Position numbers and translations under genes: made by a program
Part shown: in pieces, positions 1,129 through 30,806 of the stretch
How the letters are laid out: every line of letters begins with the position of its first letter
How positions within the stretch are numbered: position 1 is the stretch's first letter
Notes under the pieces: model-generated
Seen by the model: the letters and a program-made list of their open reading frames with translations, nothing else
Told to the model about the DNA's origin: nothing
The model's database searches: none
Source of the DNA: Chitinophaga pinensis
GTDB taxonomy: Bacteria; Bacteroidota; Bacteroidia; B-17B0; Aurantibacillaceae
Assembly (NCBI GenBank): GCA_945887955.1
Contig: CAMCZO010000029.1
Coordinates: forward strand, 1 to 32,381
Direction of reading: 5' to 3'
DNA length: 32,381 bases

Positions 1129-2093
1129 GTCCTTCAAACATTCATCATTTAAATTCAGCACTTATGGTAATCTCTTGCCTTGTTGCTTTTTTTATACCCT
1201 TCGAATTATTTTTATTTTCATATGCTATTTTAGGCCCCTTGCATTATTTAACCGAAATTGGTTGGCTACATAAAAAAAATTATTTCACTAAAGGAAAAAA
1301 TGATTTTATATTTTTGATTATAGGCTGTGTTTTAATTGTTTATTGGAATTATTTTCCAATTAAAAACTATACCAGAACAGCTGATGTTTTATTGTTTTGT
1401 TTGTTTTTAAGCATTGTGTTTGTTTTTATTAAAGATTGGCTTTATCGTTGGATTTTAATACTGTTATCTGTAATTATAATTGGTGTATTAAATAATTCGC
1501 CCCAATATTTCACTTGGTTTGGAATTTTTTTACCAACTATTATTCATGTATTTATTTTTACCTGGGTCTTTATGCTTTATGGCGTAATTAAAGAAAAATC
1601 TATTCCTGGCTTAATTTCAATAGCTGTTTTAATTTTATGTACAGTTTTGTTGTTTATTATTCAGCCAACAAACCTAATTTATAAGGTTAGTGAGTTTACC
1701 ATGAAAAGTTATGGTGGCTTTAGTGAATTAAATTTTAGATTAATTAATTTTTTAAATTTATCTAAATTAACTGAAGTTAAACAAATATTTACTACTCAAG
1801 TTGGTTTTGTAATAATGCGATTTATCGCCTTTGCCTATACCTATCATTATTTAAATTGGTTTTCAAAAACATCGGTTATTAAGTGGCATTTGGTTCCTAA
1901 AAAAACTTTATTTTTAACATTAATTATTTGGCTTCTTTCAATTTCGATCTATTTTTACGACTACACTGTAGGCCTGCAAGTTCTTTTGTTTTTAAGTTTT
2001 TTACATGTGTTTTTAGAGTTTCCTTTAAATGTAATGTCTTTTACAGGAATAGGAAAAGAACTGTCGGCCTTTAACATCAAAAAAACAAAATAA
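1125..2093 (+). CDS. Polytopic membrane protein with conserved-looking histidines
   Basis: A 322-residue integral membrane protein with about nine or ten hydrophobic helices. The start ATG overlaps the previous stop (ATGA at 1125-1128), so the pair is an operon. Histidines lie within or beside predicted helices: GPLHYL (His40), WLH (His49), TIIHVF (His141), YTYHYL (His241), KWH (His255) and FLHVFLEFP (His294). This spacing is reminiscent of the Brp/Blh carotene-cleaving dioxygenase superfamily, which binds iron through membrane histidines. That resemblance is my inference and is not strong: the canonical Blh motifs are not plainly present. The safe call is a conserved-type membrane protein of unknown function paired with a secreted thioredoxin-like protein. 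Confidence 0.75.
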   Translation: MSPSNIHHLNSALMVISCLVAFFIPFELFLFSYAILGPLHYLTEIGWLHKKNYFTKGKNDFIFLIIGCVLIVYWNYFPIKNYTRTADVLLFCLFLSIVFVFIKDWLYRWILILLSVIIIGVLNNSPQYFTWFGIFLPTIIHVFIFTWVFMLYGVIKEKSIPGLISIAVLILCTVLLFIIQPTNLIYKVSEFTMKSYGGFSELNFRLINFLNLSKLTEVKQIFTTQVGFVIMRFIAFAYTYHYLNWFSKTSVIKWHLVPKKTLFLTLIIWLLSISIYFYDYTVGLQVLLFLSFLHVFLEFPLNVMSFTGIGKELSAFNIKKTK

Positions 2094-2191
2094 ATTAGTT
2101 AAAAATAGATTATCATTTAGTTCATTTAATTCAGAAATATTTTTGAAATTAATATTTAATGCAAAAAAAATATTTAAGTAATTTGTGTGCC

Positions 2192-2833
2192 CTACTCTTT
2201 TAAAAACGGATTATGACTTCGCTCGAAACCAATTGTAGTCATAGACCCATGTCCACTATAAACTTTCACATGATCAGGCAACAACATTAATTTTTGTTTA
2301 ATAGAATGTATTAAAACATCATGCTCCCCTCCAGGCAAATCACTTCTGCCTATACTCCCTTGAAATAAAACATCGCCACTAATAAGAATTAAGTTACTTG
2401 GATTATAAAACGAAATGCTACCCGGAGAATGTCCTGGTGTAAAGATGCACTTAAATTCATATTGGCCTAAACAAATAATGTCGCCTTCTTTAATAAATTT
2501 GTTAGGCATTGGCGAAGGGCTACAAGAAAATCCATACAACTCAGCTGTTTCGGGCATTCGCTCTAAAAAAAACATTTCGTCGGCATGCACCTCGGGAAGT
2601 AAGCCATAATTATCAAATATAAAACTATTGCCCAACACATGATCTATGTGCGCATGAGTTAATAATAAGCGTTGTAATTTTAGTTTTTTATCCGAAATAA
2701 AACTTTTTAAAATTGTGTTTTCTTTTTCGTTTGAGTTACCTGGATCAATGATAAAAGCTAAGCCATCATCATCATAAATTAAATAGGTGTTTTGTTGAAA
2801 CTCATTAAAGCAAAATGATTTTAAATGTAACAT
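2192..2833 (-). CDS. Metallo-beta-lactamase-fold hydrolase (glyoxalase II-like)
   Basis: A 213-residue cytoplasmic protein with the metal-binding signature of the MBL superfamily: THAHIDH (His60, His62, Asp64, His65), PGHSPGS (third histidine), SGD (bridging Asp near 153) and YSGHG (last histidine). The length matches single-domain hydroxyacylglutathione hydrolase-like enzymes, which usually carry two zinc or iron ions; it lacks the C-terminal glutathione-binding domain of true GloB. A hydrolytic thioesterase-type role is therefore likely and the substrate is open. The start lies 2 nt after the stop of the amidohydrolase at 2836-3990, so the two are almost certainly co-transcribed. Confidence 0.88.
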   Translation of the reverse strand: MLHLKSFCFNEFQQNTYLIYDDDGLAFIIDPGNSNEKENTILKSFISDKKLKLQRLLLTHAHIDHVLGNSFIFDNYGLLPEVHADEMFFLERMPETAELYGFSCSPSPMPNKFIKEGDIICLGQYEFKCIFTPGHSPGSISFYNPSNLILISGDVLFQGSIGRSDLPGGEHDVLIHSIKQKLMLLPDHVKVYSGHGSMTTIGFERSHNPFLKE

Positions 2834-2835
2834 GG

Positions 2836-3990
2836 TTAAGCTATTTTTTTTATAAAGTTGAGTTGTGTGTCGCTGTGTTGAATTAGATTTAAACCAGTAT
2901 TTTTTCCTATAATTAATTTCCCGAATTTATCCTCGATGCCTAATGCCTTGGCACCATTATAGGTTAAGGCCTTCAAAATTGATTCAATAGAAATTGATGG
3001 CGATTTAGCCAAAAGAATAGATGCCTCGAAACACATATCTAATTTTTGATTGCTGGCTAAACTATCGGTTCCTATGCACCAATTTTGATTGTGATTTAAA
3101 AACAAGTCGCAATTTGGTAATGTGTTTTCTATAAATAAATTGGCGCCTGGACAAAAACACCAATTTATAAATTTATATTTACTGGCAATTATATCTTCCT
3201 CTTTACAAAATGTATTATGAACTAAAAGCGATTTTTTATTTGGAATAACATCTAAATACGACAATAAACTTGATGTTTTTGGAGGGGTAAACCAATTGAT
3301 ATCAATATTTAAATAGGCAAATAAATCATTAATACCGCTTGGCCTGCCGGCAAAAAACTTTGTTTCTTCTTCGCTTTCTTGATTATGAATACTAAAAGCT
3401 AAATTATTTGAACTATTATAATTGGCAATTTTATTAATTAATAGTTTAGAAGAACTAAAAGGGGCATGTGCTGCAAGGCTTCCTATTAAATTATAATTCT
3501 CTAATTGCTTAAGAAGGGATAATCCTTTTTCAAAAATAGTTTCACTATGCAATGGATTTAATCCAATTAATTCGATAAAAGTATGGTAATATATTTTGCT
3601 ATTGGCTTTTGTTTTAAACGTAGTATCGATGTTACTAATGTCTCCAACAGCCACAATTCCACTTTCCCACATTTTAAAATCTGCTTCAATGGCCGCATCT
3701 TCTTGCTCTTTTTTATTAAAATTATTGCGCTTAGCGATCACTTGTTTTAAAAATTCAATTAAGCCTGTCTTAGACTCTATCTGAGAAAACAAATGGCTTA
3801 ATTCTAAATGACAATGTGCATTCACAAAACCAGGGGCAATAATACCATCATAATGCTCAATTTCAGAACTTTGTATTTCTGTTTTTTTTACAATATCTTT
3901 CAATAGTCCAAAATCATCAATTACTAGTGCCATCTCTTGCGACAAAAAATTTATCCCAGTAAATATGCTATTAGCACTTATGATTCGCAT
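2836..3990 (-). CDS. Amidohydrolase-superfamily deaminase/hydrolase
   Basis: A 384-residue TIM-barrel metal-dependent hydrolase. The N-terminal beta segment is followed by GFVNAHCHLELSH, the HxH metal site (His59 and His61 in this numbering). Further motifs are AHAPFSSS, HNQESEEE (histidine plus glutamate pair) and CIGTDSLASN with the metal-binding aspartate, the order seen in the MtaD/TrzN/guanine-deaminase-like branch. The reaction is probably deamination of a purine or nucleoside-like compound, but the substrate cannot be read from sequence. I chose the ATG at 3988-3990 over an in-frame start 90 nt upstream because homologues of this family begin just before the first beta strand, the longer form would overlap rlmN, and a TAACTTTG promoter element lies immediately before this ATG. 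Confidence 0.83.
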   Translation of the reverse strand: MRIISANSIFTGINFLSQEMALVIDDFGLLKDIVKKTEIQSSEIEHYDGIIAPGFVNAHCHLELSHLFSQIESKTGLIEFLKQVIAKRNNFNKKEQEDAAIEADFKMWESGIVAVGDISNIDTTFKTKANSKIYYHTFIELIGLNPLHSETIFEKGLSLLKQLENYNLIGSLAAHAPFSSSKLLINKIANYNSSNNLAFSIHNQESEEETKFFAGRPSGINDLFAYLNIDINWFTPPKTSSLLSYLDVIPNKKSLLVHNTFCKEEDIIASKYKFINWCFCPGANLFIENTLPNCDLFLNHNQNWCIGTDSLASNQKLDMCFEASILLAKSPSISIESILKALTYNGAKALGIEDKFGKLIIGKNTGLNLIQHSDTQLNFIKKIA

Positions 3991-3993
3991 AGC

Positions 3994-4001
3994 CAAAGTT
4001 A
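3994..4001 (-). promoter_or_regulatory. Bacteroidota -7 element for the amidohydrolase operon
   Basis: On the minus strand the sequence reads TAACTTTG, a full match to the Bacteroidota primary sigma -7 consensus TAnnTTTG, and the ATG follows after only 3 nt. No good -33 TTTG is seen at the usual distance. If it is used, the transcript would be leaderless or almost so. Confidence 0.55.
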
Positions 4002-4021: not shown

Positions 4022-4029
4022 TATCTTTG
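4022..4029 (+). promoter_or_regulatory. Bacteroidota -7 element for rlmN
   Basis: TATCTTTG matches TAnnTTTG exactly and ends 12 nt before the rlmN ATG, giving an expected leader of under 10 nt. The -33 region is poor. It is back-to-back with the promoter of the divergent amidohydrolase in a 51-bp intergenic region. Confidence 0.6.
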
Positions 4030-4041
4030 TAATCGGTTAAA

Positions 4042-5100
4042 ATGATAAAAAAAGACATACGTGCTCTTAGTCAGGATCAATTAATTGATTTGTTTACTAC
4101 TATTGAAGAACCGGTATTTAGAGCTAAACAAGTTTATGATTGGCTTTGGTCAAAAGGAGTAATTGATTTTAACCAAATGTCGAATCTTTCAAAAAAAGTA
4201 CGCGAATATTTAGAAAACAATTTTGTAATTAATGCGGTTCAAATTCATGAGCTACAAATTAGTTCTGACAAAACTATAAAATGCGCTATGCGCTTGCACG
4301 ATAATTATGTAGTTGAAAGTGTTTTAATACCTCATCGATTAAGAATGACGGCCTGCATTTCTTCGCAGGTAGGCTGTAGCTTATCCTGTACTTTTTGTGC
4401 AACAGGCAAATTAAAACGCATGCGAAATTTAAATGCTGATGAGATATTTGATCAAGTCGTATTAATAAAAAATACTGCCGCCGAAAAATATAAGGCCCCC
4501 TTAACCAATATTGTATATATGGGAATGGGCGAACCTTTACTTAATTATAAAGAAGTGCTTAGTTCGGTTGATAAAATAACAAGTCCAACTGGCTTGGGAA
4601 TGGCAGCTAAACGCATAACCGTATCTACAGCTGGGGTTGCAAAAATGATTAGTAAGCTTGGCGATGATGAAGTTAGATTTAATTTAGCACTTTCGTTACA
4701 TGCTGCCAATGACGAAAAACGCAATCACATTATGCCTATTAACGAAACTAATAGTTTAGATAATTTAGCTCAGGCCCTTCAACATTTTACAGAAAAAACA
4801 GGCTCAAGGCCAACCTTTGAATACATTGCGTTTAAAGACTTTAATGATTCGATAAAAGATGCTCAAGAATTAGTAAATTATTGTAAAAAAGTAAAAAGTA
4901 AAGTAAATATTATTGAGTATAATTCGATTGATGGAAGTGATTTTATTCAAACTAGTAAAGAACGATTGTTAGCATTTACTCAGCACTTAGAAAAAAATGG
5001 CGTAATTTGTAATGTAAGACATAGCAGGGGCAAAGATATTGATGCAGCCTGTGGACAATTAGCAAATAAAAACAAATTAATTTCTCCAGAATTAAAATAA
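4042..5100 (+). CDS. rlmN: 23S rRNA/tRNA adenine-C2 methyltransferase RlmN
   Basis: A 352-residue radical-SAM enzyme that methylates C2 of A2503 in 23S rRNA and A37 in some tRNAs. The radical-SAM cluster motif is present as GCSLSCTFCATG (Cys112, Cys116, Cys119), with NIVYMGMGEPLLN downstream and the C-terminal NVRHSRGKDIDAACGQL segment, which contains the cysteine (Cys337) that forms the methyl-carrying intermediate in this family. The N-terminal accessory domain (FRAKQVYDWLW) is also typical. Length is normal for the family. It heads a plus-strand operon with the prenyl synthase (18-nt gap) and a lipoprotein. Confidence 0.97.
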   Translation: MIKKDIRALSQDQLIDLFTTIEEPVFRAKQVYDWLWSKGVIDFNQMSNLSKKVREYLENNFVINAVQIHELQISSDKTIKCAMRLHDNYVVESVLIPHRLRMTACISSQVGCSLSCTFCATGKLKRMRNLNADEIFDQVVLIKNTAAEKYKAPLTNIVYMGMGEPLLNYKEVLSSVDKITSPTGLGMAAKRITVSTAGVAKMISKLGDDEVRFNLALSLHAANDEKRNHIMPINETNSLDNLAQALQHFTEKTGSRPTFEYIAFKDFNDSIKDAQELVNYCKKVKSKVNIIEYNSIDGSDFIQTSKERLLAFTQHLEKNGVICNVRHSRGKDIDAACGQLANKNKLISPELK

Positions 5101-7025: not shown

Positions 7026-7057
7026 TTTGGAGTTTCTAGATTAAATACGTATCTTTG
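7026..7057 (+). promoter_or_regulatory. Bacteroidota promoter of the toxin-antitoxin cassette
   Basis: TTTG (7026-7029), a 20-bp spacer, and TATCTTTG (7050-7057) together match the -33/-7 consensus TTTG-N17-23-TAnnTTTG. The transcription start would fall near 7061, about 15 nt before the ATG at 7076, which also decides the antitoxin start. The promoter lies inside the proposed cassette, so the module would be expressed wherever it lands. Confidence 0.75.
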
Positions 7058-7075
7058 TTAAAAATACACGTAATT

Positions 7076-7318
7076 ATGACAACTAAATTAACCTTGACAG
7101 TAGAAAAGTCAATTATAGAAAGAGCGAAATCATACGCAAAAAACACAGGTAGAAGTTTATCCGAACTCATTGAAAATTATTTGGAAACAATAACTCAAGA
7201 AAGCGGAGAAGAAAGACTTTCTCCAAAACTGAACAAAATAGTAGGCTCTGTTAAACTTCCAAAGAACTTTGACCAAGAAAAAGAATTGCGTACTTATTTT
7301 GAATCAAAACATTTATGA
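7076..7318 (+). CDS. Antitoxin, ribbon-helix-helix-like (DUF6364 type)
   Basis: An 80-residue protein starting MTTKLTLTV, followed by a helix (about 11-24) and the segment GRSLSELIENYLETIT. The strand-helix-helix order is that of ribbon-helix-helix DNA-binding antitoxins; Bacteroidota proteins of this look are usually named DUF6364 and paired with PIN toxins. It should bind and neutralise the downstream toxin and autoregulate the operon. I chose the ATG at 7076 rather than a TTG at 7055, because 7055 lies inside the -7 promoter element. The stop overlaps the toxin start (ATGA, 7315-7318). Confidence 0.85.
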   Translation: MTTKLTLTVEKSIIERAKSYAKNTGRSLSELIENYLETITQESGEERLSPKLNKIVGSVKLPKNFDQEKELRTYFESKHL

Positions 7319-7978: not shown

Positions 7979-8989
7979 TCAATCCTTAATACAACGCACA
8001 GACAAGCCATCCTCCTTGGTGTAATCGGCCCTTAATGCATTGCCATTTATGAAGTCCAATCTGCGGCTCCAAGCGTAATAAGAATTGGACTCTGATGAAC
8101 TCCACCAGGAACCGAATGCGCCAATGTCGCTAAAATCTCCATTATAAATACGCTTACCGCCCGGAAGTCCTGTAAAGCCACTTGAGTTGGTGGCCCCAGT
8201 ATTTGGGCTCGCCCAATGCGAAGTGCCAGCTTCCTTCATTTTACCGCCTGCTGTTGGCTCTCCGCCTAAATATGTGGTTAGGGTTGTCCACTCTGAATCT
8301 GAAGGTATGTGGAAGCCTATTGGGGCTAAGCCGCGAGGGTCGTTTACTGCATACCAATTATACAGCTTGCCATAGATGATGCCATTGGAAGTATTGTTTG
8401 CGTAATAACACCAGGCGCCAGTATTTAGGTTTGCCCAAGCGGTTTTATCTTGTACCTCGGGTATTGGATCTCCATTTCGGTAGGTTGCTATATCAAGGTT
8501 TTTGCTTGACCAGGTTTGGTTGCCAATTGTAATTAACATAATACACGATCTTTGAATACTATCTGGAGGGGGTGTGCCCGTGCATCCTGATTGACCTGAG
8601 GTATAGGTTCTTGTTTGAATATTGTTTGAACATACGCTCCAAGATGAATAAACAAAAACGCATGGAGTAATACATTGTCTTTGAATACTATCTGCAGGAG
8701 GTGTACCCGTGCATCCTGATGGGCTTGAGGTATAGGTTCTTGTTTGAATATTGTTTGAACATAAGCTCCAAGATGAATAAACAAAAACGCATGATGTAAT
8801 ACATTGTCTTTGAAGACTATCTGCAGGGGGCGTGCCCGTGCATCCTGATGGGCTTGAGGTATACGTTCTTGTTTGTATATTGTTTGAACATGAGGTCCAT
8901 CCGGAATAAACAAAAGTACATTCTTTTTTACATCCCATTAATACTATTAACAGAGCTAATAGCGTTGTGATTAAATTTAGTTTTTTCAT
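7979..8989 (-). CDS. Lipoprotein with three TSP1-like repeats and a FISUMP domain
   Basis: A 336-residue protein with a lipobox (LMGC, Cys20). Residues 24-66, 67-109 and 110-151 are three near-identical repeats beginning with C-x-F-V-Y-S-x-W, then CSNNIQTRTYTS, SGCTGTPP and a closing Cys. The W/C/TRT spacing recalls degenerate thrombospondin type 1 modules. Residues about 152-336 form a Fibrobacter succinogenes major paralogous (FISUMP) domain: IGNQTWSSKNLDI near its start, LYNWYAV, GFHIPSDSEWTTL, GKMKEAGTSHW, SGFTGLPGGKR, WWSSSES and the C-terminal LSVRCIKD. Such proteins are surface or envelope proteins of unknown role. The gene looks clearly more GC-rich than its neighbours, a possible sign of transfer or recent spread. 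It lies 32 nt after the gene at 9022-9528 and may share its transcript. Confidence 0.88.
   Translation of the reverse strand: MKKLNLITTLLALLIVLMGCKKECTFVYSGWTSCSNNIQTRTYTSSPSGCTGTPPADSLQRQCITSCVFVYSSWSLCSNNIQTRTYTSSPSGCTGTPPADSIQRQCITPCVFVYSSWSVCSNNIQTRTYTSGQSGCTGTPPPDSIQRSCIMLITIGNQTWSSKNLDIATYRNGDPIPEVQDKTAWANLNTGAWCYYANNTSNGIIYGKLYNWYAVNDPRGLAPIGFHIPSDSEWTTLTTYLGGEPTAGGKMKEAGTSHWASPNTGATNSSGFTGLPGGKRIYNGDFSDIGAFGSWWSSSESNSYYAWSRRLDFINGNALRADYTKEDGLSVRCIKD
8540..8920 (-). repeat. Three tandem 129-bp coding repeats
   Basis: Units are about 8792-8920, 8663-8791 and 8540-8662, in gene order. They encode the 43-residue repeats. Units 1 and 2 share long identical stretches, and unit 3 differs mainly at GQSG and PPPD. 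Near identity at DNA level points to recent duplication, so copy number may vary between strains. Confidence 0.85.
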
Positions 8990-21799: not shown

Positions 21800-24112
21800 T
21801 TAGTCTTTTATAATTCTGTAAACTCCTTGTTTATTATCGTTAGATATATTTAAAAAATAAACCCCTTTGTTTAATGAAGCTAAGTTTAAGTGATCTTTAA
21901 TTTCTGTTTTATTAAAATAATTTGTTTGAAAAATAATTTCACCAAGTAAGTTACTAAGCTTTAAATTGGTAATTCTATCTGCATTTAAATTTCCAACAGC
22001 AAAATTAAAATCATTTTTAAATGGATTAGGCCATACACTTAAGCCTATCGGATTATTGCGAGATAAATTATAAACCCCCACATCTCCATTGCCGGGATTA
22101 TCGGTAGAAATAGTAAAATTATTATTACCAATATCATAAAATACATTGCCAATACTCTCAATTTTAATGCGGCAAGTATTATTTGTAGCAGCTAAAGTAG
22201 GTACTAATATGAGTTCTGCGCCATCGTTTGGTGTTGAATTTACTAAAACACCATAAGTATTTCCGCTATTATACGAAATTAATATTCTAACCGAATCGCA
22301 GGCAATTGGGGATTGATCTGTTCCTCCTAAATCCCACGTAATGGTTTGAAGAGTATTTACATTCCACACTATATTTGAAATATCTGGATAAGTTACAAGA
22401 AAAGGTCCTAGATTGTCAATAGTAATGTTGCTAATGCCATAACAAACGCCGCCGCCACCCATTTTGTTGTCTCGAGCAGTTAATCTAAACTGCAATGTTT
22501 GTGGCGTGGTAGGCAGATATTCTCCTTGAGTTGAGGTATAATTACCTAAAGCCACCACGCTTACTTTTGGAAAATAACGAATAGGGCTAGCTATTGGAGC
22601 ATATGAACGAAAATATGGTCTAGTTCCTGAATTCCAGCTACTGGTGGTCACGCCAGGATCCGTCTCTTCCCATGAATAAGTAAGGGGATCTATATCTGGA
22701 TCAATTGCAGTTCCTTTTAAAACAAAAGGGGTAGAAATAGGAATGGTATAGTCGCCCGTACCTGAAACTAAAGGTGGATTATTGCCAGTAGTAGAAGTTA
22801 TGGCACATGAATTTCCTGAGCCATGCGTAAAATTAACTATCTCATCAAAACTTATGGCATGAAAATATGGAATGCTATTGTTCCCTAAATTATCACTTCC
22901 ACCACAAATGCCTGCATATGCCATAATGGTTATGCCGCTTCCTGGCTCAACAGAAGTAGCAGCATTTCTATTTCCACTACACGAACCGGTTCCTGCATTA
23001 AATGTATGGTTTCCGCCAAATTGATGTCCGATTTCGTGAGCAACATAATCAATGTCGTATGGATCTCCTACCGGACTGGGGCTCCCAGTTATTCCCATGG
23101 CTTTATAATTATTATTACAAACTCCAAAAACAGCTAAGCCGCCGCCGCCTGTGCTAAATGTGTGACCAATATCATAATTAGCAGCCCCTATATTGGCATT
23201 TATTACTAATTGACTTTTATTAAGTAGTGAATTCGGATTGTTATTATCATTTGTTGTAAATGAATTAGATGCGGCACTAGGATAAATTACTAAAGTTGTG
23301 GTGGGCACCAAAATTAATCTAACCGAAATTTCTTTTTCGTAAACACCATCTACTCGATTAACGCTGGTAACTATTTTTGAAAGTGTTTGGGCTATAGTTG
23401 GGGCAGCTAATCCTGTTGCCGCATTTGCATATTGTTTTGTACAAGCGATGGCTAATCGATAAGAACGTAACTCTTCGCCTACACAAATTGCAGGAGTGGC
23501 CACATTTGATTTGGAACTTGTTTTAGTGGACTCTGGTTTGGGTGCTTTTTTTTGATAGTTGCCTTCTAATACTAATTCAGCCTCAGGTAATATTTGAGAA
23601 GGGTCTTTTTTAAAATCAGCTGTATAATAAACAATATAATCTTCTGTGTTTCCTATACAATAAGGATCAATAAAGAAATCACCATTAATTGATAAAACCA
23701 TTCCATGAAATCCAAATTCAGTTAAATCTAATTTACCATTCGCATACGGGTCGTCTATCCCTTTTATGCTGTATGTTTTAATATTAGGAAATGCTTCTGA
23801 TAATTCTGGCATCATAATCGGACTTTCGACTACTTTAAATTTTTGAATAGTTCCGTTTGGCAATGGCAAACTAATAATACAATTGCTTAAATTAATAGTG
23901 GTGTTTTTTTCATTAGGTGATTGAATTAATTTTAATTTTAATTCATTACTTTTTAACTGAAAAGTGGTGTATTTTTTTGGGATTATTTGTCTTTTACCAC
24001 TTATTTGAATCTCAGATTCTTTATAGAATTTCCAGAAATTATCTACAACATTTTGTGCATTTAATATAAAATTAAATGAAAAAGAAACAAGAACTAAAGT
24101 AATTTTTTTCAT
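21800..24112 (-). CDS. T9SS-secreted reprolysin-like metalloprotease
   Basis: A 770-residue secreted protein starting at the MKKITLVLV signal sequence. A start 66 nt further upstream would overlap nadK and delay the signal peptide, so I reject it. A propeptide-like region (to about 200) precedes the metzincin catalytic domain with VAHEIGHQFGGNHTF (zinc histidines at about 359, 363 and 369) and the Met-turn TIMAYAGIC (about 397). A beta-rich region (about 440-660) follows with Ig/fibronectin-like strands (PLVSGTGDYTIP and NIVWNVNTLQTITWDLGG). The C-terminus (about 685-770) is a type A T9SS sorting domain: LSVWPNPFKNDF, then LKLSNLLGEIIF, and LNKGVYFLNI near the end. Export through the Sec pathway and then T9SS is therefore expected, with attachment to or release from the cell surface. 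Confidence 0.92.
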   Translation of the reverse strand: MKKITLVLVSFSFNFILNAQNVVDNFWKFYKESEIQISGKRQIIPKKYTTFQLKSNELKLKLIQSPNEKNTTINLSNCIISLPLPNGTIQKFKVVESPIMMPELSEAFPNIKTYSIKGIDDPYANGKLDLTEFGFHGMVLSINGDFFIDPYCIGNTEDYIVYYTADFKKDPSQILPEAELVLEGNYQKKAPKPESTKTSSKSNVATPAICVGEELRSYRLAIACTKQYANAATGLAAPTIAQTLSKIVTSVNRVDGVYEKEISVRLILVPTTTLVIYPSAASNSFTTNDNNNPNSLLNKSQLVINANIGAANYDIGHTFSTGGGGLAVFGVCNNNYKAMGITGSPSPVGDPYDIDYVAHEIGHQFGGNHTFNAGTGSCSGNRNAATSVEPGSGITIMAYAGICGGSDNLGNNSIPYFHAISFDEIVNFTHGSGNSCAITSTTGNNPPLVSGTGDYTIPISTPFVLKGTAIDPDIDPLTYSWEETDPGVTTSSWNSGTRPYFRSYAPIASPIRYFPKVSVVALGNYTSTQGEYLPTTPQTLQFRLTARDNKMGGGGVCYGISNITIDNLGPFLVTYPDISNIVWNVNTLQTITWDLGGTDQSPIACDSVRILISYNSGNTYGVLVNSTPNDGAELILVPTLAATNNTCRIKIESIGNVFYDIGNNNFTISTDNPGNGDVGVYNLSRNNPIGLSVWPNPFKNDFNFAVGNLNADRITNLKLSNLLGEIIFQTNYFNKTEIKDHLNLASLNKGVYFLNISNDNKQGVYRIIKD

Positions 24113-24161
24113 GCTAAATTTAAAGTTAAAAATAATTTTTAATGTAATAAAATTTGTTTTT

Positions 24162-25040
24162 TTATTGTCTTTTGTCAATTCCCCACATCATTTTATTTCG
24201 AAGCGTAGTAAAAAAATGTTGTCCTTCTAATGCAATTAAATTTAGTCTGAAATCAGCCTTTTTAATTGTTATTTCGGAACCCGTTGGAACTTGTGCGTTT
24301 CGCGAATCAAGCGAAATGTTAAAATTATCACTTCGGCCACTTACCTTAAAACTAATTTGTTTATTATTTGAAATTACAATGGGCCTCACTGTTAAGTTAT
24401 GCGGGGCAATAGGTGTGATAATAAAATTGTCTGAATCAGGTATCATAATTGGTCCACCACAACTCAAAGAATATGCTGTAGATCCAGTTGGAGTAGCTAC
24501 AATCAATCCATCAGCAAAATAAGAATTTAAAAATACACCATCTATATAAGTATCTATATTAATCATGGCGCTACTATCTTTTTTATGAATAGTAAATTCG
24601 TTTAAGGCATAATTAACTTCACCAAAACAATTATTGCAGCCCGAAATCTCTATTAATTCTCGTTTATCGAGCGTAAATTTTTCTTTTAATAAAAGTTGGA
24701 TCGATTTTTTTAAATCGTTGGTGTTAACCGAAGCTAAAAATCCTAATCTGCCTGTATTTACTCCTAACAAAGGAACCCCTGATTTTTTTACCAAGTCAAT
24801 AGTTTCTAATAAAGTGCCATCTCCTCCCAAAGAAATAACATAGGATGCTTTTGCGATTAATTCTTCTGAATTTGAAAAAGTTTCTAAACTTAAGTTAAAT
24901 TGATAGGTTTTTTTTATGAATTGGTAATAGGGTTCGAAAATAATTAAATCGACACCTTCGTCTTTCAATAATCGATATATATCTTCAATATAATTAGAAT
25001 GATCGTGGTTTGAAGAGCGTGAATATATGGCTATAGTCAT
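24162..25040 (-). CDS. nadK: NAD kinase
   Basis: A 292-residue ATP-NAD kinase making NADP+. It has the GGDGT motif (72-76, catalytic Asp74), the NEFTIHK segment that binds NAD, PTGSTAYSLSCGGP (the second conserved NadK box), and LTVRPIVI, all in order. The length is typical. It follows selD on the same strand after 21 nt, and this short gap contains a good TATCTTTG element ending 4 nt before the ATG, so it can be transcribed independently of the selenium genes. Confidence 0.96.
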   Translation of the reverse strand: MTIAIYSRSSNHDHSNYIEDIYRLLKDEGVDLIIFEPYYQFIKKTYQFNLSLETFSNSEELIAKASYVISLGGDGTLLETIDLVKKSGVPLLGVNTGRLGFLASVNTNDLKKSIQLLLKEKFTLDKRELIEISGCNNCFGEVNYALNEFTIHKKDSSAMINIDTYIDGVFLNSYFADGLIVATPTGSTAYSLSCGGPIMIPDSDNFIITPIAPHNLTVRPIVISNNKQISFKVSGRSDNFNISLDSRNAQVPTGSEITIKKADFRLNLIALEGQHFFTTLRNKMMWGIDKRQ

Positions 25041-25044
25041 TAAA

Positions 25045-25072
25045 CAAAGATAAGAAATATTTTATTCCTCAA
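25045..25072 (-). promoter_or_regulatory. Bacteroidota promoter for nadK, near-leaderless
   Basis: On the minus strand TTG (25072-25070), a 17-bp spacer and TATCTTTG (25052-25045) match the consensus; the -33 part lies in the 3' end of selD. The -7 element ends 4 nt before the nadK ATG (25040), so the mRNA should start at or next to the start codon. Confidence 0.6.
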
Positions 25073-26126
25073 TTCGGATGATTTTTTCTTCGATTTTTAC
25101 CATTTTACCAATTGGATGTATAAAATTTTGTAAATTATTTTCAATTAGCAAATCTTGAATCTCTTTTAAGCATGGTGGCTTAGCCGAAAACAAAATGCCA
25201 CCATTTGTTTGAGGGTCGGGTAAAATTGTAAAAGCCTCAGCTACATCAACATTTTTTGAAAAACAAATACTGTTGCTATATGCATTCCAATTGCGATAAG
25301 TGGCATCAGGAACACAACTTTTAGAAATATAATAAGGCAGTGAGACAATTTTTGGTATACTTTTATAATTTAGTTCGGCAGTTAAATTGCTTCCTTCTGC
25401 CATCTCTATTAAATGTCCGATCAATCCAAATCCTGTCACATCTGTCATGGCGCTCACGCCATTTATTTTTGCTAATTTTTCGCCAATAAAATTAAGTTGA
25501 GTTAGTTGCTTAATTAACAAAATTTCATCTTCAGGCCTTAGCACTTGTTTTTTTTGGGCTGTAGACAAAACGCCAACTCCAATAGGTTTAGTGATAAAGA
25601 TAAGATCGTTTAAATTTGCGCTATTGTTTTTTTTAATTTGGCTAATGTCTATTAATCCATTTACAGAAAGCCCAAACATTGGCTCCAGAGTGTCGATACT
25701 GTGCCCACCAGCTAATGGAATGCCTGCTTCTAAACATACTGCCCTTGCTCCTTCGAGCACTTGATTGGCTATTTCGGTTGATAATTTATTTATTGGCCAT
25801 CCTAAAATTGCTAGTGCCAAAGTGGGCTTGCCTCCCATGGCATAAACATCGCTAATTGCATTGGCGGCGGCAATACGGCCAAAGTCATAGGCATCATCAA
25901 CTATCGGCATAAAAAAATCAGTGGTTGCTATTAATGCTCTTCCATTTCCTAAATCGTATACTGCTGCATCATCATTGCTGCCGTTTCCAACTATTAGTTT
26001 CTCGTTAATAGGTGTTTTTATATGACTATGAATAATCTCCTTTAATGCCGAGGGGTCTATTTTACTGCCACATCCTGAGCCGTGAGCATATTGCGTGAGG
26101 GCAATTTTTGTGTTATTTTCTAACAT
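25062..26126 (-). CDS. selD: Selenide, water dikinase (selenophosphate synthase)
   Basis: A 354-residue SelD that makes selenophosphate from selenide and ATP. The N-terminal catalytic loop reads TQYAHGSGCGSKI: Cys19 and Lys22 correspond to E. coli Cys17 and Lys20, while the second cysteine of E. coli (Cys19) is serine here, which is known to be dispensable. GNGSNDDAAVYDL (metal/ATP aspartates), TTDFFMPIVDD, GGHSIDT, and TDVTGFGLIGHL follow. The active-site residue is cysteine, with no in-frame TGA. The gene overlaps mnmH by 14 nt, so it is translationally coupled to the enzyme that uses its product. Confidence 0.96.
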   Translation of the reverse strand: MLENNTKIALTQYAHGSGCGSKIDPSALKEIIHSHIKTPINEKLIVGNGSNDDAAVYDLGNGRALIATTDFFMPIVDDAYDFGRIAAANAISDVYAMGGKPTLALAILGWPINKLSTEIANQVLEGARAVCLEAGIPLAGGHSIDTLEPMFGLSVNGLIDISQIKKNNSANLNDLIFITKPIGVGVLSTAQKKQVLRPEDEILLIKQLTQLNFIGEKLAKINGVSAMTDVTGFGLIGHLIEMAEGSNLTAELNYKSIPKIVSLPYYISKSCVPDATYRNWNAYSNSICFSKNVDVAEAFTILPDPQTNGGILFSAKPPCLKEIQDLLIENNLQNFIHPIGKMVKIEEKIIRIEE

Positions 26127-27289: not shown

Positions 27290-27297
27290 TACTTTTG
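27290..27297 (+). promoter_or_regulatory. Bacteroidota -7 element for the sensor-kinase operon
   Basis: TACTTTTG matches TAnnTTTG and ends 4 nt before the ATG at 27302. No convincing -33 element is seen. The predicted message would be leaderless or nearly so. Confidence 0.5.
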
Positions 27298-27301
27298 TGG
27301 A

Positions 27302-28303
27302 ATGGTTTTTAAATATAAAAGTATTTACACAGAAATTATTGCCTGGGTAGGTTTTTTAGCGTTTCAGTTTATATTATTCTTTTCTTTAGAGCCATTTATT
27401 GTTGATTCTAAAATTAATCCAATTTACCTAGTTTATTTATTAACGAACAGCTTATTAATTTTATTTTTTTATTTGCATCACTACTTATTCTTGCCAAAAT
27501 ATTTTTTTACAAAAAAACATACTATTTACTTTTTTTTTGTCTTTATTTATTTATTTGGGATGATTATACTCTTGTCTTCTAATAAATCTTTTAACCCATT
27601 TTTTAAGCTTAATTTTAGAAACCCCATACTTGCATTTAACCTAGCTGTTGTTATTCGATTTGCAATTATTTATTTATTTTCATTTTTATTAGCAACAAAT
27701 GAACATAAAAAAAAACTAGAAAAAATAAAGTTAAATTTAGAATTACATTCTCTCAAAATACAGATTAATCCTCATTTTCTATTTAACACTTTAAATAACA
27801 TTTATTCATTAGTCATTACAAAGTCTGATTTAGCTGCCGAGTCTATTACCAGATTATCAGCTATTATGAGGTATATGATTAAAGATACAAATCAAGATTT
27901 CGTATTAATTGAAAATGAAATTAGTTATATTAAAGCATACATTGAATTGGAAAAATTGAGGTTAACTAATCTTGTTACCTTAACTGTTTTGGTTACTGGT
28001 AATTTTTCGAATAAAAAAATTGCACCTATGCTCTTTTTGCCTTTTATAGAAAATGTATTTAAACATGGTGTAAGTAATAGCGACCCATCAAATATTATTA
28101 TTAAAATTGATGTAGAAGGAAATGATTTAATCTTTGAAGTTTTTAATACAAAAGTTCAAACTATCCCTAAATTAGAAAGTGGTTTTGGTATAGAAAATAT
28201 TCAATTGCGATTAAATTTATTATATCCTGAAAAACATCTTTTGATTATTAATAACGATAAACAAAAATATCAAATCATACTAAAATTAAAACTAAATGAT
28301 TAA
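27302..28303 (+). CDS. LytS/YehU-type sensor histidine kinase
   Basis: A 333-residue membrane kinase with four predicted transmembrane helices (about 12-30, 42-63, 76-92 and 110-131), no large sensor domain, and then the His_kinase domain: LKIQINPHFLFNTLNNIYSLV with phosphoacceptor His158, the LEKLRL segment, FIENVFKHGV (N box), and GFGIENIQLRL (G box). This is the compact LytS-like architecture of Bacteroidota. It overlaps the response regulator by 8 nt, so the two are coupled and surely a cognate pair. The start ATG is fixed by the -7 element only 4 nt upstream and the lack of another near Met. Confidence 0.93.
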   Translation: MVFKYKSIYTEIIAWVGFLAFQFILFFSLEPFIVDSKINPIYLVYLLTNSLLILFFYLHHYLFLPKYFFTKKHTIYFFFVFIYLFGMIILLSSNKSFNPFFKLNFRNPILAFNLAVVIRFAIIYLFSFLLATNEHKKKLEKIKLNLELHSLKIQINPHFLFNTLNNIYSLVITKSDLAAESITRLSAIMRYMIKDTNQDFVLIENEISYIKAYIELEKLRLTNLVTLTVLVTGNFSNKKIAPMLFLPFIENVFKHGVSNSDPSNIIIKIDVEGNDLIFEVFNTKVQTIPKLESGFGIENIQLRLNLLYPEKHLLIINNDKQKYQIILKLKLND

Positions 28304-30141: not shown

Positions 30142-30149
30142 TAACTTTG
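30142..30149 (+). promoter_or_regulatory. Bacteroidota -7 element for the PorT-like gene
   Basis: TAACTTTG matches TAnnTTTG and lies 21 nt before the ATG at 30171, giving a leader of about 18 nt. The -33 position is only T-rich. Confidence 0.55.
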
Positions 30150-30170: not shown

Positions 30171-30806
30171 ATGAAAAAAATATTGCTTCTCTCGTTTTTA
30201 ATCAGTTTTACTGCTCAAATATCTAAAGCTCAATCTATTTTTGGCTGGAATTTTAGTTTGGATTATAACTCCCTAACTACTAAATTCAATCCAGATTCAA
30301 TTAAAAGTGTTGCTCAAAAATTTGCAATAGATAAATCAGGCGGCTTTAGCCTAGGAATCCCTTTAAATATTAAACTAGCTAATTTAGTTATATTAAGACC
30401 TCAATTAGTTTTTAATGTAACTTTGGGTCAATTAGATTACACATTGCCTAATGGACAATCTATATCTACTAAATTCCCTTCTTTAAATGTTGAAGTCCCT
30501 TTTCAAGCAGTTATTTCTAATTTTAGTAAATTTCATGGTTTAGCACTTATATTGGGTTTAAAAGGTGGTTATAAATTAGCTGATTTGAGTAAAAATCAAG
30601 CTGAATTATTTAGTAAAAGCTATGGGTCATTCGATACTGGCCTTGGATATCGTATTAAAATTGGTAAAAAAACAAGAATGATTGAAATGAGGTATTCATT
30701 AGGTTTAAATATGTTTAATCAAAAAATAACTGATGCTAATTCACTTGCTAATTCATTCGAATCAATAAGAAGAAATCGTATATCTTTTATTATAAATACA
30801 TTTTAA
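30171..30806 (+). CDS. PorT-like outer-membrane beta-barrel protein
   Basis: A 211-residue protein with a signal peptide (about 1-20, ending SKAQ) and the layout of the small eight-stranded barrels of the PorT/OMP_b-brl_2 type: GWNFSLDYNSL, GFSLGIPLNIKLANLVILRPQL, FPSLNVEVPFQAVIS, GLALILGLKGGYKL, RTEMRY-like strand MIEMRYSLGLNM, and the terminal RRNRISFIINTF. PorT proteins take part in type IX secretion, and a T9SS substrate is encoded in the same window, but this family has many paralogues, so the specific PorT role is an inference. It is a single gene with its own -7 element. Confidence 0.65.
   Translation: MKKILLLSFLISFTAQISKAQSIFGWNFSLDYNSLTTKFNPDSIKSVAQKFAIDKSGGFSLGIPLNIKLANLVILRPQLVFNVTLGQLDYTLPNGQSISTKFPSLNVEVPFQAVISNFSKFHGLALILGLKGGYKLADLSKNQAELFSKSYGSFDTGLGYRIKIGKKTRMIEMRYSLGLNMFNQKITDANSLANSFESIRRNRISFIINTF

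Follow-up and report, generated by a model that had tools for sequence, protein, structure and literature searches.

The contig CAMCZO010000029.1 of Chitinophaga pinensis (assembly GCA_945887955.1) was analysed over positions 1 to 32,381, and this whole stretch of 32,381 nt is referred to here as the window. Within it, an exact copy of the −7 promoter element TAnnTTTG (the box) stands directly in front of an amidohydrolase-family gene, nadK and a LytS-type histidine kinase gene, and ends 3, 4 and 4 nt, respectively, before the ATG (Table 1). The original prediction, made from the sequence of the window, had pointed out these boxes as ending 3–4 nt before three start codons and had read the genes as candidates for leaderless messenger RNAs (mRNAs); their coordinates and gaps were confirmed, as were those of the two genes it had set against them, namely the TA cassette (box 7050-7057, 18 nt before the ATG at 7076) and the PorT-like gene (box 30142-30149, 21 nt before the ATG at 30171). 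None of the three boxes has a G at its two free positions, which fits the revised form TAHHTTTG. All three genes begin with ATG at starts picked by a gene caller blind to promoters, and the starts of the amidohydrolase gene and nadK match the N-terminal alignment of their orthologues. The kinase gene precedes a response-regulator gene (labelled by sequence reading, with no domain scan).

The word TAnnTTTG as such is no commoner in the window than expected (63 matches, versus 65.83 ± 8.45 in shuffles), so that many matches must be noise and only position can be informative. We therefore surveyed the gap between box and start codon in 830 kb of the same genome (798 kb plus the window; 655 genes) and in 400 kb from each of two relatives in the genus, G001 and G006 (328 and 309 genes), leaving out genes for which fewer than 150 nt of the analysed stretch lay upstream and using as a control 29 motifs obtained by permuting the six fixed letters of TAnnTTTG. 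In the own genome, 18 genes have the box at a gap of 3–5 nt versus 1.62 for the permuted motifs, an 11-fold excess, and 15 of these 18 lie outside the window; at 0–2 nt there are none (control 1.55). The box exceeds the control in every bin from 3 to 50 nt, including 6–10 nt (14 versus 3.07), 11–20 nt (37 versus 6.10) and 21–30 nt (27 versus 7.83), and 48 genes versus 32.00 were counted at 51–100 nt. Both relatives show the same excess at 3–5 nt (8 versus 0.72 in G001 and 4 versus 0.41 in G006), with 2 versus 0.62 and 0 versus 0.59, respectively, at 0–2 nt. Pooled over the three genomes, the counts at single gaps from 0 to 11 nt are 0, 1, 1, 6, 12, 12, 5, 7, 3, 5, 4 and 6, that is, 30 genes at 3–5 nt versus 30 at 6–11 nt (one-sided P = 0.0056). 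In the window itself, 3 of the 29 called genes fall at 3–5 nt where about 0.07 would be expected at the control-motif rate, a comparison made post hoc. The gap distribution is thus almost empty below 3 nt and has a local maximum at 3–5 nt that rises from a continuous range of leadered promoters. The genome-wide peak near zero that the original prediction had proposed to look for is therefore present in the sampled genome, at 3–5 nt and with almost nothing below 3 nt. The leaderless class that it had envisaged is borne out as this local peak and not as a cleanly separate group, since gaps of 6–11 nt are also well above background.

The gap is also kept across the genus at five of the six genes tested. 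Orthologues were taken from genus searches, with the sequence upstream of each read from its locus or from a fetched stretch, and all counts include the own genome. All 37 searched genomes were read for the amidohydrolase gene and all 36 with a match, of 37, for nadK; for the other genes the best 30 loci were read among the genomes with a match (hemC 36, nadD 35, truB 37, uvrC 36, ffh 35 and pdxJ 35). An exact box at a gap of 3–5 nt was found in 16/37 genomes at the amidohydrolase gene, 17/30 at hemC, 13/30 at uvrC, 5/30 at nadD and 14/36 at nadK, and with variant boxes (TA..TT[TC][GA]) included these counts rise to 35/37, 23/30, 25/30, 20/30 and 17/36. In contrast, the leadered controls gave 0/30 for ffh, 0/30 for pdxJ and 0/36 usable genomes for rlmN, variants included. 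The sixth gene, truB, was rejected as a conserved case because even the closely related G004 does not keep its gap. The genes at which conservation was found have unrelated functions.

Mean ungapped upstream identity among the rows with an exact box is 33–52%, and when counted by upstream group (at least 55% identity) the exact cases are 7/12 for the amidohydrolase gene, 14/25 for hemC, 11/28 for uvrC, 6/23 for nadK and 2/14 for nadD, so that the 3–5 nt gap is kept with diverged upstream sequence at the first three, with fewer exact cases at nadK and nadD. Mean information is concentrated in the box at the amidohydrolase gene (1.04 bits, versus 0.16 in the gap and 0.45 in upstream columns) and at uvrC (1.05, 0.25 and 0.27 bits); at nadK, where the genomes are in mixed states, no box stands out (0.38, 0.47 and 0.28 bits). 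The intergenic region between the divergent amidohydrolase and rlmN genes holds both arrangements side by side: with variants counted, the nearest box lies 3–4 nt from the amidohydrolase start in 35/37 genomes and 8–13 nt upstream of rlmN in 32/36 usable genomes. It should be noted that ffh has exact boxes at 15–25 nt in 22/30 genomes and thus also roughly keeps its distance, so that approximate constancy is not by itself peculiar to the candidates. In a hemC-hemD fusion gene (L206:2744-4330, orthologues L283-L312) GTG is the start codon in 26/30 genomes read, and the box was seen at 4–5 nt in most of them.

Table 1. Promoter boxes and genes discussed in the text (window coordinates, except the last row).
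Feature	Position	Strand	Remarks
−7 box TAACTTTG	4001-3994	−	exact TAnnTTTG; 3 nt before amidohydrolase ATG
Amidohydrolase-family gene	2836..3990	−	ATG 3990-3988; PF01979, E = 6.2e-21; start conserved in orthologues
rlmN −7 box TATCTTTG	4022..4029	+	12 nt before rlmN ATG; leadered control in the intergenic region common to the amidohydrolase gene
rlmN-like gene	4042..5100	+	divergent from amidohydrolase gene; named by sequence reading, no domain scan
nadK (NAD kinase)	24162..25040	−	PF20143 and PF01513
−7 box TATCTTTG	25052-25045	−	4 nt before nadK ATG (25040); within the 21-nt spacer after selD
selD-like gene	25062..26126	−	directly upstream of nadK; named by sequence reading, no domain scan
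−7 box TACTTTTG	27290-27297	+	4 nt before kinase ATG (27302)
LytS-type histidine kinase	27302..28303	+	PF06580, E = 4e-24
Kinase homologues with exact gap-4 box	L093, L096-L101; kinase ~1550-2950		Aquimarina records and one metagenome-assembled genome

The two remaining window genes behave less uniformly. nadK begins 21 nt after the selD-like gene and changes state within the genus: the nearest exact box lies at 4–5 nt in 14 of the 36 genomes, at 9 nt in 2 and at 21–68 nt in 7, and 13 have none. By eye, many gap-4 orthologues appear to retain the end of selD just upstream, and these boxes may therefore be internal operon promoters. In the nadK orthologues L003-L008, also judged by eye, the box TATCTTCG lies 4 nt from the ATG in L008 and about 20 to 46 nt from it in others, which looks as if a leader had been inserted. 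The gene at 21800-24178 has a called TTG start (24178) overlapping the end of nadK; 22 codons further downstream lies an ATG that precedes a signal-peptide-like stretch and, judged by eye, looks the better start.

For the kinase, the close relative G004 keeps the gap of 4 nt with a different gap sequence. Among 71 homologues placed from named records, with starts from our gene caller, a gap of 4 nt was found, besides G004, in six Aquimarina records, one Bacteroidia metagenome-assembled genome and one Flavobacteriaceae record, and a gap of 5 nt in L048; 27 homologues, nearly all from Flavobacterium and mutually very similar, have the box at 18–20 nt. Two sensor kinases are among the named examples of Bacteroides thetaiotaomicron mRNAs with leaders shorter than 10 nt (PMC7366714). 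Taken gene by gene, gap conservation argues strongly for the leaderless reading of the amidohydrolase gene, which is likely to be leaderless, and moderately for that of nadK, which is fairly likely to be so and may also be read from upstream; for the kinase it points only weakly in that direction.

Outside the genus, nadK has an exact box at a gap of 4 nt in 1 of 17 genomes read (21 with a match), and at the amidohydrolase gene 0/6 had an exact box at 3–5 nt. Two Mucilaginibacter records (L038:786-1385 and L043:1323-1922) contain a GTG-start gene with TATCTTTG at a gap of 4 nt. Repeated orthologues predominate in the pooled flanks from named Bacteroidota, which therefore serve as examples only. 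The arrangement recurs between families, and the genes that carry it seem to change.

The start codons of the candidates differ from those of leadered genes. Pooling the three surveyed genomes, we compared genes with an exact box at 3–5 nt, genes with a box at 10–50 nt and genes with neither. GTG starts account for 6 of the 30 genes in the first group versus 1 of 173 in the second (two-sided P = 4e-5) and 58 of 1089 in the third (P = 0.0055), a genome-wide GTG sample of six genes in which all starts are computed. Overall, 28 of the 30 start with ATG or GTG, and the other two are TTG calls. GTG is frequent among the orthologues of hemC (26/30), uvrC (19/30) and the amidohydrolase gene (17/37); since nadD and nadK use ATG (29/30 and 36/36), GTG is not required. 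The base at −3 differs as well. An A at this position, the Kozak-like base tied to efficient initiation in Flavobacterium johnsoniae (PMC6847099), is present in 5/30 genes at gap 3–5 versus 87/173 with the box at 10–50 nt (P = 6e-4) and 510/1089 with neither, and in orthologues with the box at 3–5 nt in 11% (amidohydrolase), 22% (hemC) and 35% (nadK). Promoter composition explains part of this drop, since in leadered promoters the bases just after the box are 31–39% A. As a general mark, loss of A at −3 was only partly borne out, with uvrC and nadD retaining the A. A pyrimidine at −1, considered as an initiator sign, was set aside: it stands at 81% in the pooled orthologue sets and is not significant genome-wide, and the ffh control also often has C at −1. 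Predicted folding energy of the first 40 nt showed no clear difference (−2.41 versus −2.06, P = 0.09).

Published transcription start sites give the gap its meaning. In F. johnsoniae many promoters have 4 or 5 nt between the −7 box and the start site, with a TTG/TTTG element near −33 being much less evident (PMC6847099), and in Flavobacterium psychrophilum the boxes lie at −12 to −5 (PMC9723704). With a spacing of 4–5 nt, a gap of 4 nt makes the first base of the start codon the expected transcription start, and the mRNAs of genes with gaps of 3–5 nt should, on this calculation, begin at the start codon. Based on these findings, we consider it quite probable that the genes are read from primary-sigma (sigma-ABfr type) promoters with a −7 box very near the start codon. 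Transcription would start on the first base of the ATG or GTG, or no more than about one base away from it, yielding a leaderless mRNA whose start codon is recognised by the ribosome at the 5' end. The arrangement would be kept by selection in the genus at a small gene set with the amidohydrolase gene, hemC, uvrC, nadD and nadK (behind selD) among its members, and would lie at one extreme of the usual range of distances between promoter and start codon, where a local peak is seen.

Several observations weigh against this interpretation. The bin at 6–10 nt is itself 4.6-fold above control, leaving no clean separate class, and two G001 genes have gaps of 1–2 nt. The gap of 3 nt at the window amidohydrolase gene is one base below the published 4–5 nt and would require transcription to begin one base nearer the box (its orthologues have gaps of 3 or 4 nt). 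At truB, with a gap of 4 nt in the own genome, only 1/30 genomes has a box at 3–5 nt, whether exact or with variants, and for the kinase the gap is not kept in three likely orthologues (one with a box at 7 nt and two without a box). Among 28 genomes of other families read for hemC (59 with a match), one has an exact box and one a variant at 3–5 nt. Finally, A at −3 persists among the candidates at uvrC (68%) and nadD (60%), and a pyrimidine at −1 is not enriched genome-wide (20/30 versus 106/173).

Each of the alternatives that we considered explains some of these data. An AT-rich genome holds many TAnnTTTG words, some of which will fall beside start codons by chance; the lack of enrichment of the word in the window agrees with this, as does truB, whose gap-4 box shows that such a case can be species-specific. 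Chance is nevertheless very unlikely to account for an 11-fold excess at 3–5 nt over permuted motifs or for the repeated occurrence of this gap at five genes throughout the genus while their flanks have diverged. The boxes could instead be real while the functional mRNA is leadered, with nadK expressed from a selD-nadK transcript or the genes from promoters further upstream. The position of nadK 21 nt behind selD, and the selD end apparently retained in many gap-4 orthologues, suit this explanation; yet in the own genome the amidohydrolase gene and nadD are divergent from their upstream neighbours, hemC and uvrC lie 79 and 91 nt from theirs, and the box would have no need to hold its distance to the start codon. 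We therefore regard it as improbable, though less so than chance.

Misplaced start codons, with the true starts downstream of ordinary leadered promoters, would be in keeping with the many GTG starts, which are sometimes a sign of misannotation. This is hardly tenable given that orthologue similarity begins within the first few residues, and starts further upstream are excluded at hemC and uvrC by in-frame stops one and three codons, respectively, before the own-genome starts. A translation signal on the mRNA, with no promoter involved, might be suspected because the box sits in the initiation region of genes in a phylum without reliance on Shine-Dalgarno pairing (PMC6847099). This reading is extremely unlikely: the box is in excess in all gap bins from 3 to 50 nt, as promoters should be, is nearly absent at 0–2 nt and peaks where the published box-to-start-site spacing would place it.

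That a minority of Bacteroidota mRNAs is leaderless had been published before the original prediction was made (PMC6847099, PMC9723704, PMC7366714). Leaderless mRNAs are reported at 5.5% in F. psychrophilum (PMC9723704); in F. johnsoniae 87% of predicted transcripts have leaders longer than 10 nt, hence 13% have 10 nt or less (PMC6847099), and in B. thetaiotaomicron about 3.7% of leaders are shorter than 10 nt (PMC7366714). These mRNAs share with the present set the phylum, the −7 box and the status of a minority with little or no leader; they differ in having been measured, each in a single species, whereas the present set is known from sequence, and the accessible parts of these reports describe neither genus-wide conservation of the gap at named genes nor a link to GTG. 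A 2011 survey of TA-led leaderless genes (PMC3160421) rests on the shared logic that a promoter box about 10–12 nt before a start codon makes a leaderless gene; it differs in that such genes were detected in a single one of 37 Bacteroidetes/Chlorobi genomes, and it states that many Bacteroidetes genomes use neither Shine-Dalgarno-led nor leaderless genes. Leaderless mRNA and/or ribosomal protein S1 were later suggested as routes in the phylum by a base-bias study in 2017 (PMC5397173), and some Flavobacteriia are mentioned as having leaderless mRNA in a study from 2024 (PMC10783764). In mycobacteria either ATG or GTG can serve as a start at the 5' end, and leaderless status is likewise often common to several species; the leaderless genes there are far more frequent, use another promoter type and were shown by RNA and ribosome profiling (PMC4633059). 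A literature search that left subscription journals mostly outside turned up nothing on leaderless placement being conserved at named genes throughout a genus of Bacteroidota, nor on a GTG link to leaderless genes in Bacteroidota. The kind of arrangement is already known, and our additions are its conserved placement at named genes and the link to GTG.

How start codons are chosen in Bacteroidota, with little Shine-Dalgarno pairing, is an open question. It is possible, although we propose it only tentatively, that conserved genes use a second, 5'-end-dependent route of initiation in which GTG is readily accepted, as it hardly ever is in genes with a promoter of their own and an ordinary leader. 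Initiation behind a leader would then require an AUG whose context is favourable, whereas on a leaderless mRNA any RTG at the 5' end would be read. A conserved, sequence-predictable, GTG-biased leaderless set beside leadered genes in the same genome would let two routes of initiation be compared directly. Annotation would benefit as well, since a −7 box four bases before an RTG would mark the start of the transcript and that of the protein together.

Elsewhere in the window, the lipoprotein-like gene at 7979-8989 encodes a product in which, by eye, three near-identical repeats of about 42 residues occupy the first half.
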